64,000 nucleotides of DNA from assembly GCA_017347465.1 (NCBI GenBank), contig AP021858.1, forward strand, positions 186,001-250,000, read 5' to 3'. The DNA comes from Candidatus Nitrosymbiomonas proteolyticus (GTDB lineage: Bacteria; Armatimonadota; Fimbriimonadia; Fimbriimonadales; Fimbriimonadaceae). Below, piece after piece: positions 15,687-34,545 of the stretch (positions are counted from its first letter, which is position 1; each line of letters begins with the position of its first letter). A model generated the notes under the pieces. The model worked only from the letters and a program-made list of their open reading frames with translations, was not told where the DNA came from and did not search any database. Position numbers and translations under genes: made by a program.

Positions 15687-15850
15687 GGTAGGGAAACTCC
15701 CTCTCCGGGGAAAGGCTCTCGACAACGGGATTGGCCAGACGATGCTTCACCCCCCCTCGGGGTGGTCCGGAGGCCCCGGTTGCCCCGGAGACATGGATGG
15801 CCGTGCCGTTTGTCCGGGAGGGATAAGCGAGGTTGGCGGATAGCCATCGC
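15687..15850. repeat. Hairpin-rich repeat patch at the left end of the island
   Basis: Contains CACCCCCCCTCGGGGTG and a GGCCCCGG/CCGG hairpin. It also holds a GGCCGTGCCGTTYGTCCGGG block (15792-15815) that recurs near 49324-49346. No gene is seen here. Confidence 0.5.
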
Positions 15851-15855
15851 CCGTG

Positions 15856-15861
15856 TATAAT
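15856..15861 (+). promoter_or_regulatory. -10 box of a leaderless promoter
   Basis: TATAAT lies 7 nt before the ATG at 15869. Confidence 0.55.
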
Positions 15862-16099
15862 ACGCCATATGAGCGATAGGCGAATGTCTACCTCCTCTGG
15901 CAATCGCACCCTCGCCAGCGCGAAGGCGGCCAAGCAGGACGAGTTCTACACCCAGCTCGCCGACATCGCCAACGAGCTGAAGCACTACAAGGACCACTTC
16001 AAGGGCAAGGTCGTGCTGTGCAACTGCGACGACCCGTTCGAGAGCAACTTCTTCAGCCCGGCGCGCTGGATCGCCGCCAATTCGGGTCAGCCCGAACTC

Positions 16100-16295
16100 A
16101 ACGCCACGACAAGACAGTCCAAGAGGCCCCTCCGAAGGCCCATCGGGCCGAAATCCTACAGAAGACAGTCCAAAAGGCGTCTCCGAAGGCCCATCGGGCC
16201 GAAATCCTATAGCGAAGGGCGGAGCCCTGGAACAGGGCCCACCCCCACCGATAAGCCCTGTAGGGGCGGAATGTCGGCCCCTGTAACGCGCTCCA
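16100..16295. repeat. Repeat family A copies inside the methyltransferase gene
   Basis: Two tandem 51-bp units start at 16113 and 16164 (GACAGTCCAAAAGGC-type start, GAAGGCCCATCGGGCCGAAA core). They run into TATAGCGAAGGGCGGAGCCC, the same two-hairpin layout as the elements flanking the transposase at 19.3-19.9 kb. Unit length is a multiple of three, so the host frame stays open. Confidence 0.75.
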
Positions 16296-16365
16296 GCTAC
16301 GCCGGCTCCCCCATCGTCGGCGGCCAACTCCCGCTGATAGTGATGGAGGGGCTGAAGCCGTATCT

Positions 16366-16425
16366 GGACCCCCTCGCCCCGATGAATGGCGGGGAGAGGG
16401 GGCAGGGGGTGAGGGGTCCGCGAGG
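16366..16425. repeat. Palindromic element E, copy 1
   Basis: Core CGCCCCGATGAATGGCGGGG with flanking CCCTC/GAGGG arms. It is the reverse complement of the element at 21126-21180. It interrupts the methyltransferase reading frame without breaking it. Confidence 0.75.
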
Positions 16426-16515
16426 CGCATGGGACGGAGCCCACCTGGTCGAAATCAACGAGGTCCCGGACCTCAATGAGGACGGCGCAACCAATCAGGA
16501 CGGTATGCCTCTAGC

Positions 16516-17382
16516 ATGAGATCGCCGATGTCTCCCCAGGTTCCATCCTATGACTCGATGATCGAGCCAACGTTGCGAGCGTTGCAGCTGCTTGGCGGGT
16601 CGGGCTCTATTGAGGAGGTGAATGCGAAAGTCGCTGAGCTGATGTCACTCAGCGATGAGGTGCTAGATGTTCCGCACGGAACGACCTCCACTTCCGAAGT
16701 TGCGTATCGGCTTGCGTGGAGCCGAACCTATCTAAAGAAGTTCGGTCTTCTCGAAAACTCGAGCAGGGGGGTCTGGTCGCTGACAGCAAGAGGAGTGGAA
16801 GCTCAAACCATCGACGCACGGGAAGTGGTTGCATTTGTTAGGTCTCAGTTTCCGGGCCGCGCCAATGCAACGCCCGGCATCGAAGCGACAGATGCGGCAG
16901 AGGAATCTGAGCCGCCGCAGGCTGGTTGGCAAGAGCTATATCTCCAGAAGCTACTCGGTTTGCAGCCCGCAGCCTTTGAACGCCTTATCCAGCGAATGCT
17001 TCGGGAGTCAGGATTTACTCACGTCGAAGTAACTGGTCGGACCGGAGATGGTGGCATTGACGGCGTCGGTATCGCCAGAATTAGCGGCTTCTTGAGCTTC
17101 AGGGTCTTGTTCCAATGCAAACGCTACCAGGGAAGCGTATCTCCTTCAGAGATTCGCGACTTTCGCGGCGCAATGCAAGGTCGCACGGACAAGGGTTTGT
17201 TTGCCACGACGGGTTCCTTTAGCCAAAAGGCGATCGCCGAGGCAACCCGCGATGGCGCACCTCCGGTTGATCTGGTTGATGGAGGGCAGCTTGTACTTCG
17301 GCTCAAAGAACTCGGGCTCGGAGTGAAGGTCAACATGGTTGAATCCGTGGAGGTAGATGGGGAGTGGCTAGATTCCCTATGA
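16516..17382 (+). CDS. Mrr-family restriction endonuclease
   Basis: 288 residues. The N-terminal part (~10-105) resembles the Mrr winged-helix domain, with YRLAWSRTYLKKFGLLE and SLTARG. The C-terminal PD-(D/E)xK domain carries GFTHVEVTGRTGDGGIDGVG and VLFQCKRYQGSVSPSEIRDF, with catalytic Asp in DGGIDG and the QxK motif in FQCKR. Mrr enzymes cut modified DNA. The ORF is complete and sits inside the broken methyltransferase gene. Codon use is less GC-biased than in neighbours, which fits a separate arrival. Two ATGs (16516, 16528) are possible starts. Confidence 0.88.
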   Translation: MRSPMSPQVPSYDSMIEPTLRALQLLGGSGSIEEVNAKVAELMSLSDEVLDVPHGTTSTSEVAYRLAWSRTYLKKFGLLENSSRGVWSLTARGVEAQTIDAREVVAFVRSQFPGRANATPGIEATDAAEESEPPQAGWQELYLQKLLGLQPAAFERLIQRMLRESGFTHVEVTGRTGDGGIDGVGIARISGFLSFRVLFQCKRYQGSVSPSEIRDFRGAMQGRTDKGLFATTGSFSQKAIAEATRDGAPPVDLVDGGQLVLRLKELGLGVKVNMVESVEVDGEWLDSL

Positions 17383-17919
17383 TGAATCCGCCGGGCGACT
17401 TCCGCAGCCGGGAATGCCTGGAGGTTTTGAAGCGAGCCGACGTCGTCGTCACCAACCCGCCCTTCTCCCTGTTCCGCGAGTACGTCGCCCAGCTCGTGGA
17501 GCACGGCAAGCAGTTCCTGATCATCGGCTCGAAGAACGCGATCACCACCAAAGAGGTCTTCAAGCTGATCAAAGAGAACAAGCTCTGGCTCGGCGTCGGC
17601 TTCAACGCCGGCAACGCCACCTTCGAGATTCCGAAGGAGAACGTGCGCGACTTCGCTTCGGGGGTCTACGACGAGAAGACCGGCCTCGTCAAGTTCCGCA
17701 ACGTCGGCTGGTTCACGAACATGGACTTCGAGGAGCGCCACCAGGACATCCCGCTCTTCAAGCAGTATTCGCCGGAGGCGTATCCGACCTACGACAACTA
17801 CGATGCGATCGAAGTGGGCAAGGTCGCCGACATCCCGGCCTCATCTGGCACAGGCGCACCCCAAGGGCTGTGCAGTTCGTAATGTAAGATAGGCTTCCCA
17901 GGCAAGGACAATCCAGCTC

Positions 17920-18810
17920 ATGCCCCTCACCGACCGACTCGACGAAACCATCCTCAGCATCCTAAACGGGGCTGCCGAGAAGTTGGAAACGAAGCTGGAT
18001 GCCAACGTCATGACGTACCTTGGCCCGATCCACGAAGTCTTCCTCAACGAGTTTCGTAACTTCGTGGAGCACCTCGCTCAAAGCAAGAAACCCCGCCTCG
18101 CCATGCTGATCAAGACCGGCGGGGGCAGTGCGCAGGCAGCCGAGAAGATGGTCGAGATCATGCGCCATCACTACAAGGAGGTCTGGTTCGTCGTCCCCGA
18201 CTTCGCCATGTCGGCAGGCACCATTCTCGTGCTTTCCGGCGATAAGGTCTGGATGGACTACTCGTCCTCCCTCGGGCCGGTCGACCCGCAAGTGCTCGTG
18301 ACCATTCAAGGCAACCAACAGTACGTGCCGGCCCTCGGCCATCTTGACAAAGTCGCGGAACTCATCGAGAAAAGTCGCCAAGGCACGTTGACAAATGCCG
18401 AGTTCGCCATCTTGAGGGATCAGAACCTGGCCGTTCTGCGTTCATACGAACAGGCCAGGGACCTCTCGATCAACCTGCTCGAAGAGTGGCTGGTGAAGTT
18501 CAAGTTCAAGACCTGGGCCAAGCACCGGACCGACCCTGCCAAGGTCGGGAAGAAGGTCACCGACGACGAAAAGAAGGCTCGGGCCAAGGAAATCGCTGCC
18601 CTTCTCTGCGACAACAAAGTCTGGCACTCCCACGGGCGCTTGATCGGGCACGACAGGCTGCGGGACGTCGTGCGGCTTGAGATCGACGACTACTCCGCCG
18701 ATCTTGAAATGAGGGCCCTGATCCGCGAATATCACGACCCGCTGAACGAATATGCAGCTAGAATGGGTCAACAGTTTTGTCTACACTCGAAAAACCGGAG
18801 CACGCTATGA
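17920..18810 (+). CDS. ClpP-class serine protease, SDH_sah family
   Basis: 296 residues of the SDH_sah (serine dehydrogenase proteinase) family, related to SppA/ClpP folds. The nucleophile region is FAMSAGTILVLSGDKVWMD (Ser near residue 91, preceded by the oxyanion strand LIKTGGGSAQ), followed by SSLGPVDPQV. The C-terminal block DNKVWHSHGRLIGHDRLRD and tail CLHSKN are family hallmarks. No signal peptide, so it is probably cytosolic or membrane-associated. ATGA overlap with the next small gene suggests an operon. Substrate unknown. Confidence 0.85.
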   Translation: MPLTDRLDETILSILNGAAEKLETKLDANVMTYLGPIHEVFLNEFRNFVEHLAQSKKPRLAMLIKTGGGSAQAAEKMVEIMRHHYKEVWFVVPDFAMSAGTILVLSGDKVWMDYSSSLGPVDPQVLVTIQGNQQYVPALGHLDKVAELIEKSRQGTLTNAEFAILRDQNLAVLRSYEQARDLSINLLEEWLVKFKFKTWAKHRTDPAKVGKKVTDDEKKARAKEIAALLCDNKVWHSHGRLIGHDRLRDVVRLEIDDYSADLEMRALIREYHDPLNEYAARMGQQFCLHSKNRSTL

Positions 18811-19016
18811 GAACCGCCGACAACGAAATCACCAAGGCCGTCGAAGCCATCCAAAACGACCAGGCGCTTGAGAGTGAGTTTCAGGCTGCCGCAGGTTCAA
18901 TGGAGGATTTCTACCAGCGCATGCTCGCTGCCGGCATCGCCCGCAAGGAAGACTACAACATAGTCGCCACCGGCGAAGCCAGCCACCTAGACGTTTCCTT
19001 CCTGATCCGCACCTGA
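18807..19016 (+). CDS. Small acidic hypothetical protein, 69 aa
   Basis: Not recognised. It starts at the ATG overlapping the protease stop (ATGA) with CGGAG 5 nt upstream. It is predicted mainly helical (EITKAVEAIQNDQALESEFQ) with a Met/Gly-containing middle and a DYNIVATG segment. Coupling to the protease suggests a partner or substrate-related role, which is inference only. Confidence 0.6.
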   Translation: MRTADNEITKAVEAIQNDQALESEFQAAAGSMEDFYQRMLAAGIARKEDYNIVATGEASHLDVSFLIRT

Positions 19017-19040
19017 AGTCCGCGGTTGCCCGCGTTCCGC

Positions 19041-19145
19041 CTGCTCCCGCACCCCCGACAACTGCTCCCGTCACCCTCACAATTGCTCCCGCGACCCCGA
19101 CAATGGCTCCCGTCACCCCGGCGAGAGCTTCCGTCAGGGCAGGAA
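19041..19145. repeat. 21-bp tandem repeat, about five units
   Basis: Units start at 19041, 19062, 19083 and 19104 with CTGCTCCCG-type starts and ACCCCGACAA-type ends; the fifth (19125) is degenerate. The period is 7 codons and gives a T-x-A-P-V-T-P type peptide in one plus frame, but no start codon or homology supports a gene. Confidence 0.65.
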
Positions 19146-19175
19146 TCTCGGCTGTCGGGGTTAGAATAAGCTCTT

Positions 19176-19268
19176 ATGGCAAGAATCAAGCGGGATGGGC
19201 CCGGCCTCCGGGACCAATTGACGCAGGCGAGCGCCGGCATCACCGCCAACTCTTGGCGGCCAGTTTAG
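19176..19268 (+). pseudogene. N-terminal fragment, probably of an fnIII-type protein
   Basis: ATG at 19176 opens MARIKRDGPGLRDQL and continues to ANSWRPV, where a stop codon arises at the edge of the repeat element that flanks the transposase. The peptide resembles the start of small fnIII proteins, and an fnIII piece lies on the far side of the element at 19946. I infer one gene split by the element. Confidence 0.4.
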
Positions 19269-19905
19269 GCCCAACGGGCCGATCATCCAACAGCGAAGGG
19301 CGAAGCCCTGGATAGGAACCGGACAACCCCCAGCGGGCTGAAGGCCCGCGATTCAGTCCCAGAAATACCGCTCGTCGAACTCCATCCCCGCCTCCCGCAA
19401 CATGCCCCGAAGCTCGTCCTGGAAGGAAATCTTTCGGTGGTGCTCTTCTTGGCCCTTGATGTACGCGATCACGCCGTCCGCCTCCATCGGCCCTACCGAA
19501 AACGCCCCATATCCGGCCTGCCAAGTAAATGCGGCGACGCCCTTGGTCTTCATCCACTTCGAGGTGCTCGTCTTCGTCTTCTCAATCACTTGGGCGAGGG
19601 ACATCTTGCGGGAGAGTCGAAAGAGGATGTGGACGTGGTCCTCGACGCCGCCCGTTTGGATCGAGGGGCATCCGATGTTCGCAAGAACCCCGACGATATA
19701 GGGATGCAGCTCCTGCCGGATCGTCGGGGTAAGCCAAGGGGTTCGTTCCTTCGTGCTGAAGACGGCGTGGACGAGGACAGTGGCGAGAGATTGCGGCATG
19801 TCTGTCGATTGTATCGCGGCCCTTCAGGCCGCCGGACATTCTGGGGCGTGCGTTTACCAGGGCTTCGCCCTTCGCTGGTGAATGCTCGCCCCTTTGGGGC
19901 TAGGC
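19266..19905. mobile_element. REP-transposase unit: RAYT gene between inverted repeat elements
   Basis: Left repeat 19266-19345 (TTTAGGCCCAACGGGCCGAT, then CAGCGAAGGGCGAAGCCCTG) and right repeat 19815-19905 are the same element in opposite orientation. Each has two short hairpins: GGCCC/GGGCC and AGGGC/GCCCT. Between them is a single Y1 transposase gene on the minus strand. This matches the REP/RAYT arrangement, in which the encoded transposase acts on flanking palindromes. Confidence 0.8.
19353..19799 (-). CDS. REP-associated tyrosine transposase (Y1_Tnp, RAYT)
   Basis: 148 residues of the IS200/RAYT-like Y1_Tnp family. The HUH motif is GVEDHVHILFRLSRK (His pair in HVH) near residue 57, and the catalytic tyrosine is in VIAYIKGQEEHHRK near 115. 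Also visible are VHAVFSTKERTPWL at the start, KTSTSKWMKTKG and the aromatic TWQAGYGAFSVGP. The length is typical. The start at 19799 is the family start MPQSLATVLVH. Inverted copies of a palindromic element lie on both sides. Confidence 0.9.
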   Translation of the reverse strand: MPQSLATVLVHAVFSTKERTPWLTPTIRQELHPYIVGVLANIGCPSIQTGGVEDHVHILFRLSRKMSLAQVIEKTKTSTSKWMKTKGVAAFTWQAGYGAFSVGPMEADGVIAYIKGQEEHHRKISFQDELRGMLREAGMEFDERYFWD

Positions 19906-19933
19906 TGGCAGCGACCTTGGTCGACACTCATGT

Positions 19934-19939
19934 TACAAT
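19934..19939 (+). promoter_or_regulatory. -10 box of a leaderless promoter
   Basis: TACAAT lies 6 nt before the ATG at 19946. Confidence 0.45.
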
Positions 19940-19945
19940 GATCTG

Positions 19946-20197
19946 ATGGCTACTATGGAAAGGCCCGGCTCGTTGAAGCTGGATTGGGAGCCGATCGAGG
20001 GCGCATCGTATGAGGTGCAGTGGTCCTCGGTCTCGAACTTCGCGACGATCGCGGGCTCGGCGACTTCGGCTTCGGCGTCGGACTACGTGTTTTCGGGCCT
20101 GGTTCCGGGGACTCAGTATTGGTCGCGCGTGCGGCCGATCCGGGGCGGGCAGACGGAGCAATGGTCCGACCCTGCGACGCGGGTTGCGCGGGTTTAG
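19946..20197 (+). CDS. Short fibronectin type III domain protein
   Basis: 83 residues forming a single fnIII-like domain: SLKLDWEPIEGASYEVQWS, DYVFSGLVPGTQYWSRVRPI and a final WSDPATRV. It lacks a signal peptide. It follows the right repeat of the transposase unit by 40 bp, and MARIKRDGPGLRDQL before the left repeat may be its missing N-terminus. It may be expressed from the TACAAT box 6 nt upstream, or may only be a remnant. Confidence 0.6.
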   Translation: MATMERPGSLKLDWEPIEGASYEVQWSSVSNFATIAGSATSASASDYVFSGLVPGTQYWSRVRPIRGGQTEQWSDPATRVARV

Positions 20198-20209
20198 GGG
20201 GAACAAGAT

Positions 20210-20560
20210 ATGAAGCTAATTGTATCAAGGAACCAATCAGACATGAAGGGGCTCCTCGGCGGCCACAAGGGCGTGAAGTTCAATCTACGTGCTCATGTCC
20301 AGTTAACACCTGAGGAACAGCAATTGGCTGAGCGCTACATGATCCTGAAGAAATGGCTTCCGACCGAGCTCGCTGCGGGCATGATGGGTGCCAAAAAAGT
20401 GCCGGAGTTTGGCGACCTCTTAACGCCTGTCGCCTTCGAGTACGAGAGCCTAGAGGTCCTTCTTGAAAAGGAAGAAGAGCTAAAGAAGGTTTGCGCAGGC
20501 GTGAAGAATTACATCGACGTCGCTCGCTCTTTCGGCGGGCAGGACGTCTTTGAGTTCTAG
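20210..20560 (+). CDS. Hypothetical protein, 116 aa
   Basis: Not recognised by function. GGGGAA precedes the ATG. The N-terminal half (GLLGGHKGVKFNLRAHVQLT) reads as beta-strands and a helical half follows (EYESLEVLLEKEEELKKVC and NYIDVARSFGGQDVFEF). Soluble, no signal peptide. It lies between the fnIII piece and the next small gene, on the same strand. Confidence 0.6.
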   Translation: MKLIVSRNQSDMKGLLGGHKGVKFNLRAHVQLTPEEQQLAERYMILKKWLPTELAAGMMGAKKVPEFGDLLTPVAFEYESLEVLLEKEEELKKVCAGVKNYIDVARSFGGQDVFEF

Positions 20561-20579
20561 TTGCTCACTGGGAGAAACG

Positions 20580-20813
20580 ATGGGAATCGTCAAGGGTCGA
20601 GTAGTAACGAGAACCGGTAGTCCGGTGCCAAACGCCACTGTGCGAGGGAACGTTGGTGGTTTGATGGGTGGATTCGTAACTTCCAAGACCGATCGCGAAG
20701 GGCGATTTGTACTGAACTATTCCGGGGTTGGGAGACTAGAATATGTCTCGGTCGAAGGCGGCGAGCGCGAGAATAACGTGGCAAGTGGTTCGGATTTGAC
20801 ACTCTACAAGTAG
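20580..20813 (+). CDS. Carboxypeptidase-regulatory-like domain protein, 77 aa
   Basis: A single small beta-sandwich domain: GIVKGRVVTRTGSPVPNATV at the start is the usual pattern of carboxypeptidase regulatory-like (CarboxypepD_reg) domains, followed by SKTDREGRFVLNYSGVG. GGGAGAAAC precedes the ATG at 20580. No signal peptide is present, unusual for this fold in exported proteins, so the gene may be a fragment. Confidence 0.6.
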   Translation: MGIVKGRVVTRTGSPVPNATVRGNVGGLMGGFVTSKTDREGRFVLNYSGVGRLEYVSVEGGERENNVASGSDLTLYK

Positions 20814-20892
20814 TCACCAACCAATGAAAATCGACCTCAAGAACATCACCGTCCGCGAGCTGGTCGAGGGCTACGTCGACAAGGCGGAAGAG

Positions 20893-20986
20893 GGGGTTCG
20901 CGGGCAGCTTCGCAGACCCCCACCCAGTTCGCTCCGCTCACTGACCTCCCCCTCTCACTGCGCTCCAAGGGGAGGGCGGCAAGCTG
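20893..20986. repeat. Hairpin insertion in the DUF262/HNH gene
   Basis: Two hairpins: GGGGGTTCGCGG with AGACCCCC, and ACCTCCCCCT with AAGGGGAGG. It replaces a few codons between EEGV and GGKLNIRP and shifts the frame. Confidence 0.65.
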
Positions 20987-21121
20987 AACATCCGCCCCGC
21001 CTACCAGCGCGAATTCATCTACAAGGACAAGCAGCGTAACGAGGTCATCCACACCGTGCGCAAGGGCTTCCCGCTCAACACGATGTATTGGGTGGTGGCT
21101 GGGAACTCGGATGCGCAGACG

Positions 21122-21180
21122 GAGAACCCCTCACCCCCTGACCCCCTCTCCCCGCCATTCATCGGGGAGAGGGGGAGTTT
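21122..21180. repeat. Palindromic element E, copy 2
   Basis: CCCTCTCCCCGCCATTCATC followed by GGGGAGAGGGGG. It is the same sequence, in reverse orientation, as 16366-16425. It lies just before the DGQQRT motif of the DUF262 domain and shifts the frame. Confidence 0.8.
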
Positions 21181-22065
21181 TATGAGCTGATGGACGGGCA
21201 GCAGCGCACGATCAGCCTCTGCCAGTACGTCGCGGGCGACTTCGCCATCGAGATCGAAAGGACGCCCTACTTCTTCGGCAACCTCACCGCCGAGCGGCAG
21301 AATCAGATCCTGGACTACGAGCTCCAGATCTACATTTGCGAGGGGACCGACCAGGAAAAGCTCGACTGGTTCAAGATCATCAACATCGCGGGCGAGAAGC
21401 TGACCGACCAGGAGCTTCGCAACGCGATCTACACCGGCCCCTGGCTCGCCGATGCCAAGCGTTGGTTCAGCAAGACGGCCTGTCCGGCCTATCAGATCGG
21501 CGAGAAGTACGTCAACGGCTCCCCCATCCGGCAGGAGTTCTTGGAGAGGGCGCTGGAATGGATCACGGGCGGCAAGGACGAGGTTGTTGAAAAGTGCATG
21601 GCCGTCCACCAGCACGACGCCGATGCCCAGGAGCTTTGGCAGCACTATCAGGCGGTGCTCGACTGGGTGAAGCGAGTCTTCCCGAACTACCGAAAGGAGA
21701 TGAAGGGCCTGGACTGGGGCAAGTTCTACCGCGACCACGGCCAGAGAAAGGACCTGAACGCGGCAACACTCGAGGCGCGGATCAAGGAACTCATCGATGA
21801 CGACGAAGTGCAAAGCGTCAAGGGAATCTACGAGTACCTACTGACGACCAACGAAAAGACCCTGAACCTGCGGACCTTCGACGACAGGATGAAGCGGAAG
21901 GTGTACGAGCAGCAAAGCGGCGTTTGCCCGGACTGCAGAAAGCCGTTCGATATCTCCGCGATGGAAGCCGACCACATCGTTCCTTGGCACAAGGGCGGGA
22001 AGACGGTCTTTGAGAACTGCCAGATGCGTTGCCTGCCATGCAACCGGGCGAAGAGCGGGAAGTAG

Positions 22066-22174
22066 CGGAACTGCCCGTCCTTCGCTCCGCGAAACGCAAC
22101 GGACATGGGGAGATTGTAGCGGACGGGCAGGAGCTTCTGAAAGGCTCAAACTTCCTGGTAGCATGGAAGCCACC
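22066..22174. other. Intergenic stretch before the Gfo/Idh gene
   Basis: Holds an inverted repeat CTGCCCGTCC (22070) / GGACGGGCAG (22120) with a ~40 nt loop, and a TAGCAT box (22159-22164) 10 nt before the ATG at 22175. No gene seen. Confidence 0.35.
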
Positions 22175-34180: not shown

Positions 34181-34500
34181 GGATCAACGGAATGGCTCGG
34201 TCCGGTTTCCTAGGCCTGAAAGGCCGCAAGCCTAGAGCGAAGGCCGAAGGCCTGGAACCCGCGCCACCGGACCGATCCAGTAGGCCTGAAAGGCCGCAAG
34301 CCTATAGCGAAGGCCGAAGGCCTGGAACCCGTGCCACCCTACGAGATTTCTAGGCCTGTAGGGCCGAAACTCTCCGAGCAACGGACAGCATGGCCCGATC
34401 CGTATCCCTAGGCCTGAAAGGCCGCAAGCCTAGAGCGAAGGCCGAAGGCCTGGTACCCGGGCCATCCGGTTCGTATCCCTAGGCCTGTAGGGCCGAGACT
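34181..34500. repeat. Array of repeat family A (REP-like, 50 bp)
   Basis: Full copies start at 34211, 34281 and ~34409; partial copies at ~34351 and ~34479. Each has TAGGCCTGAAAGGCC, a short spacer, then AGCGAAGGCCGAAGGCCTGG: two adjacent hairpins. Same layout as the elements beside the transposase at 19.3-19.9 kb and in the methyltransferase gene. Confidence 0.85.
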
Positions 34501-34501
34501 C

Positions 34502-34545
34502 CGATTCCCGTCATCGGAGCCGCAGGAAAGACGCCTACGGGAAAG
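34502..34545. repeat. Repeat family C, copy 1
   Basis: GATTCCCGTCATCGGAGCCG then CAGGAAAGACGCCTACGGG. A close variant occurs at ~49350-49399, also next to family B copies. Confidence 0.55.

Follow-up and report, generated by a model that had tools for sequence, protein, structure and literature searches.

A REPtron-like unit around a putative subclass 1.2 TnpA_Y1 transposase in a broken fnIII gene of Candidatus Nitrosymbiomonas proteolyticus

Introduction

Transposases of the TnpA_Y1 type fall into three classes according to Quentin et al. 2018 (PMC6006769), with class 2 (TnpA_REP, i.e., RAYT) marked by a Y---NP motif and subclass 1.1 (IS200) by Y---Q. Subclass 1.2 displays Y---Q--HH, a median length of 148 aa, DH[IV]H and WQ motifs, a C-terminal tail, and low copy number; the survey gives "no" REP and no typical IS ends for this subclass, whose members came mostly from Cyanobacteria and Bacteroidetes (PMC6006769). 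The papers that we searched tie no REPs to subclass 1.2.

Several systems resemble the locus described here. REPtrons, found in E. coli, Stenotrophomonas, and Pseudomonas, comprise a class 2 TnpA_REP/RAYT gene and its flanking REPs, and REPINs, each a pair of inverted REPs, are regarded as non-autonomous units mobilized by a RAYT. TIRtrons, with their TIRYT genes, place a Y1 gene between inverted repeats, some of which are dispersed, and a GGGGWSAS motif is a feature of many of these TIRs (De Nocera 2013, PMC3733652). IS200/IS605 elements lack terminal inverted repeats (PMC2817692).

The window analyzed here is a 64,000-nucleotide stretch (positions 186001-250000) of the single-contig, 2.81 Mb genome of Candidatus Nitrosymbiomonas proteolyticus (G000). 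Relatives used for comparison were Armatimonadota records, among them Fimbriimonadaceae and the isolate H1_ARM1 (CP054189), whose record is labelled Chthonomonadaceae.

A transposase gene between inverted three-hairpin elements

The original prediction of a Y1 transposase between two copies of one element in opposite orientation was confirmed by an inverted repeat search, Pfam, and covariance model R1, which together define the following features.

19265..19356, plus strand: right three-hairpin element, on the 3' side of the gene and overlapping the tnpA stop region (R1, 84.8 bits; inverted repeat)
19353..19799, minus strand: tnpA, encoding a 148-aa HUH/Y1 transposase (PF01797, Y1_Tnp, E 4e-20)
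19809..19903, minus strand: left three-hairpin element, on the 5' side of the gene and inverted relative to the right one (R1, 90.4 bits; inverted repeat)

The unit extends from 19256 to 19912. Its inverted repeat arms (19256-19311 and 19857-19912) are 56 nt long, 84% complementary, and spaced by 545 nt, while the elements measure ~95 nt each and have inner ends that lie a few bases from the tnpA start or stop codon.

By motif, the window protein is assigned to TnpA_Y1 subclass 1.2, next to IS200, and it fits every motif of that subclass: a length of 148 aa, DHVH at 54-57 (H55, H57), WQ at 93-94, Y113 within YIKGQEEHH (Y---Q--HH), a C-terminal tail, and low copy number. The NCBIfam IS200 model NF033573 just passes (55.8 bits against a cutoff of 55). 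Membership in class 2 (TnpA_REP/RAYT) is not supported, given that the protein reads YIKGQ rather than Y---NP and that the REP_Tyr_transpos model NF047646 fails by far (16.3 bits against a cutoff of 80). The name RAYT, as originally predicted, therefore suits the arrangement but not the protein class. A single-sequence search returned no match to a solved structure for the transposase. Judging from a dN/dS of ~0.11-0.13 versus its nearest intact homologues, tnpA is under purifying selection.

As in REPtrons, one HUH/Y1 gene is enclosed by a pair of inverted palindromic elements, copy number is low, further copies of the element are dispersed through the genome, and clusters alternate in orientation. 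The locus differs in its class 1 protein (by motif, Y---Q--HH instead of Y---NP), in elements of three hairpins and ~95 nt, and in copies numbering tens rather than hundreds. For the GT[AG]G foot of REPtrons the picture is mixed: a GTAG-type foot occurs at many loci, feet are often CCAG/ACAG, and the window elements themselves have CCAG/ACAG feet, not GTAG. Unlike REPINs, with which it shares inverted pairs, the pair here encloses a gene, and shortened pairs still hold the gene's remains. TIRtrons are similar in layout, but TIRYTs are mainly of subclass 2.1 (PMC6006769), unlike the window protein. In contrast to IS200/IS605, the unit possesses inverted ends and is not accompanied by several near-identical intact copies in its genome.

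The broken fnIII gene

The unit lies between the two remnants of a gene ending in a fibronectin type III (fnIII) part.

19042..19120, no strand assigned: tandem array of a 21-bp repeat (3.8 copies), lying ahead of the broken fnIII gene (Tandem Repeats Finder)
19176..19244, plus strand: first 23 codons of the fnIII gene, left as its 5' remnant (96% aa identity to the start of the intact G025 protein, residues 1-23)
19946..20197, plus strand: 3' remnant of the fnIII gene, to its natural stop (PF00041, E 3e-8; homology clear from ~19962)

The 5' remnant starts at 19176 as MARIKRDGPGLRDQLTQA..., and its frame continues to a stop at the edge of the right element (~19267). Homologues in two genomes from genera other than the window's, G025 and G050, are each one uninterrupted protein of ~201 aa from methionine, ending in the fnIII part, with N-termini reading MARIKRDGPGLRDQLTQA... 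(G025) and MARISRNATGLRDQLTTA... (G050). Neither genome contains a transposase match. The peptides flanking the window unit are thus the two ends of one gene. The 3' remnant displays 80% aa identity to the G025 homologue and 76% to that of G050 in a search with the fnIII piece, and the C-terminal part of the protein matches at 70% in another comparison. The predicted split of an fnIII gene was thus borne out: the uninterrupted protein joining both flanking peptides was found in both genomes, in which the flanks form single proteins instead of separate intact genes.

The insertion is not a simple one. In the DNA alignment, the match on the left covers 68 nt, and that on the right begins at position 371 of the 606-nt gene and continues to the stop, so that ~300 nt (~100 codons, roughly residues 24-124) are missing between the remnants; the idea of a clean insertion fails on this lost target DNA. 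The 3' remnant contains no internal stop, keeps its natural end, and has a dN/dS of ~0.3 versus G025, indicating that the gene broke recently or is still under some selection. H1_ARM1 lacks the stretch 15790-22122 at the collinear position (299031|299074), and parts of the stretch match a restriction-modification locus elsewhere in that genome. Because the whole stretch is absent, synteny with H1_ARM1 yielded no clean empty site at the position of the unit, and the intact gene is accordingly documented only by the homologues from other genera.

Comparable 7-codon arrays are found ahead of the intact fnIII homologues, and 21-bp (7-codon) tandem arrays of gene-specific sequence precede both fnIII-type and unrelated ORFs in the window's taxonomic order (19042-19120; L032, L033, L154, L156). 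The leader, comprising the 5' UTR and the first ~23 codons of the fnIII gene, occurs in five copies in the window's genome. Further copies at 1584661-1585341, 1727587-1727873, and 2464841-2464968 all lack the fnIII part, and one lacks an adjoining element. We considered whether the leader is an independent mobile piece.

Dispersed copies of the element

Covariance model R1 retrieved 25 copies in the window's genome, 54 in G001, and 35 in G044, and none in most relatives; some of these hits are the two flanking elements themselves, and the E-values are rough owing to a short calibration. Across 61 relatives, 10 of the 12 genomes that carry the gene also have the element, versus 3 of the 49 that lack the gene (Fisher 1.9e-7); by genus, the counts are 9/10 versus 2/37 (p 3.8e-7). 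Four of these genomes seeded R1, and p is 6e-5 once they are left out. Two sets of dispersed copies fall within the window.

16185..16276, plus strand: solitary element copy inside a broken EcoRI-type methylase gene (R1, 64.6 bits; the H1_ARM1 methylase is uninterrupted at that point)
34210..34503, plus strand: tandem cluster of three dispersed copies (R1: 34280-34374 and 34408-34503; a genome search adds 34210-34304)

At the methylase site, ~52 nt are replaced by ~238 nt, which is the nearest case to a clean presence/absence of an element between the window's genome and H1_ARM1. In this lineage, members of this element family can thus come to lie within genes, here too with replacement of part of the target DNA. 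The methylase gene, of the adenine type (15833-17882), is broken by both the solitary element and an Mrr-like gene (16516-17382), and its H1_ARM1 counterpart (L154) is without both. Comparison of the window's genome with H1_ARM1 yielded no clean empty site or single-element presence/absence; where intergenic stretches carry elements, the differences are wholesale replacements and local tandem duplications.

Paired elements around subclass 1.2 genes in other genomes

A sample of 86 homologous loci with enough flank, drawn from many phyla, was examined by taking the best alignment of the upstream flank against the reverse complement of the downstream flank, with shuffles as control. The Y---Q--HH motif is kept in 84 of the 86 homologues. 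Inverted-flank alignment scores had a median of 53 against a shuffle maximum of 27, and 61/86 loci exceeded that maximum. Since palindromes align in both orientations, a stricter count was also used, in which the inverted score exceeds the direct score as well (45 loci).

The plan is constant: an outer hairpin, 10-15 nt, AG, a middle hairpin (often CCCAGGGC..GCCCTGGG), 20-28 nt, an inner hairpin, and the gene. RNAalifold identified compensatory changes in each of the three hairpins. At the foot of the middle hairpin, GTAG is the most frequent sequence (16 of 57 scored elements, in a scan that required AG). The elements of one unit are far more alike than those of different units, and element similarity tracks protein similarity (Mantel r 0.565, 0/2000 permutations), a relationship that shared inheritance by itself would also produce.

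Paired elements occur in most members outside the Bacteroidota (53/65, versus 8/21 in Bacteroidota; p 5e-4), whereas the subclass 1.2 survey listed no REP (PMC6006769). The lower frequency in Bacteroidota may be the reason that the elements escaped a survey in which Bacteroidetes and Cyanobacteria were strongly represented. Opitutus and Rhodopirellula were already known to have many GTAG repeats or many tyrosine transposases with repeats on either side (PMC3733652), so part of the pattern may have been seen before without being tied to subclass 1.2. A general tendency of the units to disrupt genes is not supported: joined flanks read through in 18/43 loci, compared with 44.6% for a control of mismatched flanks.

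Internally deleted units

Searching for further units of transposase plus inverted elements, as the original prediction proposed, revealed two in the window's genome, at ~1,584,827-1,585,233 and ~1,727,941-1,728,348, each with both elements present. They share one internal deletion of the transposase that keeps the first ~60 residues and the last few and loses the Tyr motif, and over 440 nt they are 96.4% identical, the homology beginning precisely at the element's outer edge. From their sequences, the two deleted units are MITE-like derivatives.

The 1.728 Mb unit is kept at 97% in H1_ARM1, surroundings included. When the 1.585 Mb unit is aligned with this H1_ARM1 copy, homology begins precisely at the outer border of the 5' element and continues across the two elements and a further 29 nt; it is near-identical inside the unit and falls sharply in the leader beyond, to roughly 70% by eye. 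At the 1.585 Mb site itself, H1_ARM1 has no unit; the corresponding point is occupied by one element of a different subtype, after which comes a different gene. A deleted unit was thus copied between loci at least once, with one border exactly at the element, which fits transposition or recombination alike. Near-identical intact copies were found in none of the genomes searched, the window's genome holding one intact copy and relatives divergent ones. The prediction that the unit moves, or once moved, as a block is thus supported by the two deleted copies for at least one past movement, though not for autonomous transposition of the intact unit; its description of such genes as single-copy and immobile is roughly right for the intact gene, given one intact copy and two dead ones.

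Interpretation

We regard a REPtron-like unit whose enzyme is a TnpA_Y1 of subclass 1.2 as the best explanation, and probably the correct one. The sequences directly show the unit itself, a broken gene whose homologues in other genomes are intact, deleted copies of the unit, and dispersed elements that are associated with the gene. The inverted flanks at 61 of 86 homologous loci, the compensatory changes in the hairpins, the low dN/dS of tnpA, and the prevalence of the GTAG foot also speak for this explanation. To these observations it adds two steps that we infer: TnpA binding and cleavage of the elements, and movement of the copies by the enzyme rather than by recombination. The transposase would bind the palindromic elements on either side of its gene when these are single-stranded and folded (HUH H55 and H57; nucleophile Tyr113) and, by analogy with TnpA_REP and IS200 transposases, would cut and rejoin beside the middle hairpin. 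Its main activity would be to spread the ~95-nt element, with the gene-bearing pair copied only rarely. In this lineage the unit would have come to lie in the fnIII gene with the loss of ~100 target codons, and dead, internally deleted versions would have been copied to other loci. Against this explanation weigh the lost target codons, the extension of the copied block beyond the element on one side, the lack of a clean empty site between the window's genome and H1_ARM1, the lack of near-identical intact copies in all genomes searched, and the CCAG/ACAG feet of the window elements.

The strongest competitor, which we hold to be less probable though a serious contender, is that the elements are old dispersed repeats and that homologous or microhomology-driven exchange, both among them and between paralogous fnIII leaders, carried the unit, the leader, and the fnIII end to where they now lie. 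The ~100 missing codons argue against scarless Y1 insertion, which predicts no such loss, and count in favor of exchange; the copied block reaching 29 nt into the leader, so that its boundary on that side falls inside the leader, fits homologous recombination as well as transposition. The other element subtype that H1_ARM1 carries exactly where the window's genome has a deleted unit, the mosaic character of the 15790-22122 island, absent from the collinear place, and the local tandem amplification of elements point the same way. Recombination sits less well with the exact outer-edge boundary on the other side, where the flanks are unrelated, with purifying selection on the catalytic gene, and with elements that track the gene across genomes. 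An ordinary IS200-like insertion sequence that inserted in the gene and is decaying would agree with the IS200 model score just above its cutoff and with one intact plus two deleted copies; it is nonetheless improbable, as the ends are inverted copies of one element that is itself dispersed in 25 copies, near-identical intact copies were not found in the genomes searched, and the protein bears the subclass 1.2 signature Y---Q--HH. Strong hairpins near the start and stop codons would stop or shield transcription, but that the pairs are only terminators or stem-loop insulators unrelated to transposition appears very unlikely when dispersed copies accompany the gene's presence, element and protein similarity rise together, and one copy lies inside the methylase gene.

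Under the preferred REPtron-like explanation, subclass 1.2 appears to have a cognate element. The survey, having no REPs, left this subclass lacking a substrate or role; a cognate element supplies both and extends REP association to the IS200 side of the family tree. In the deleted units there is a candidate for the transition, long supposed, from a gene-bearing pair to a non-autonomous one. A bolder proposal, offered tentatively and in our view rather unlikely, is that subclass 1.2 represents an extant stage on the way from IS200 to domesticated RAYTs, in which the pair-plus-gene unit still transposes occasionally, can land in genes with target deletion, and sheds MITE-like deleted pairs. If true, the steps from insertion sequence to REPIN would be traceable within one genus.

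Other observations

In the window, a GmrSD/HNH gene (20824-22065) contains two short palindromic inserts (~20903-20975 and ~21102-21168) that belong to a different repeat family and are both missing in H1_ARM1. A unit is also present on contig L068 (JADZEW010000016.1), titled as a Methanoregulaceae archaeon, with alignment statistics to the window unit equal to those of an Armatimonadota genome, G012 (L054); the record is most likely mis-binned or mislabelled. Finally, a 1058-bp block is 99.8% identical between G061 (L196, 2935-3992) and the window's genome (L207, 857-1914), lying at different genomic places with an element nearby in both, and is probably an insertion sequence favoring these repeats.
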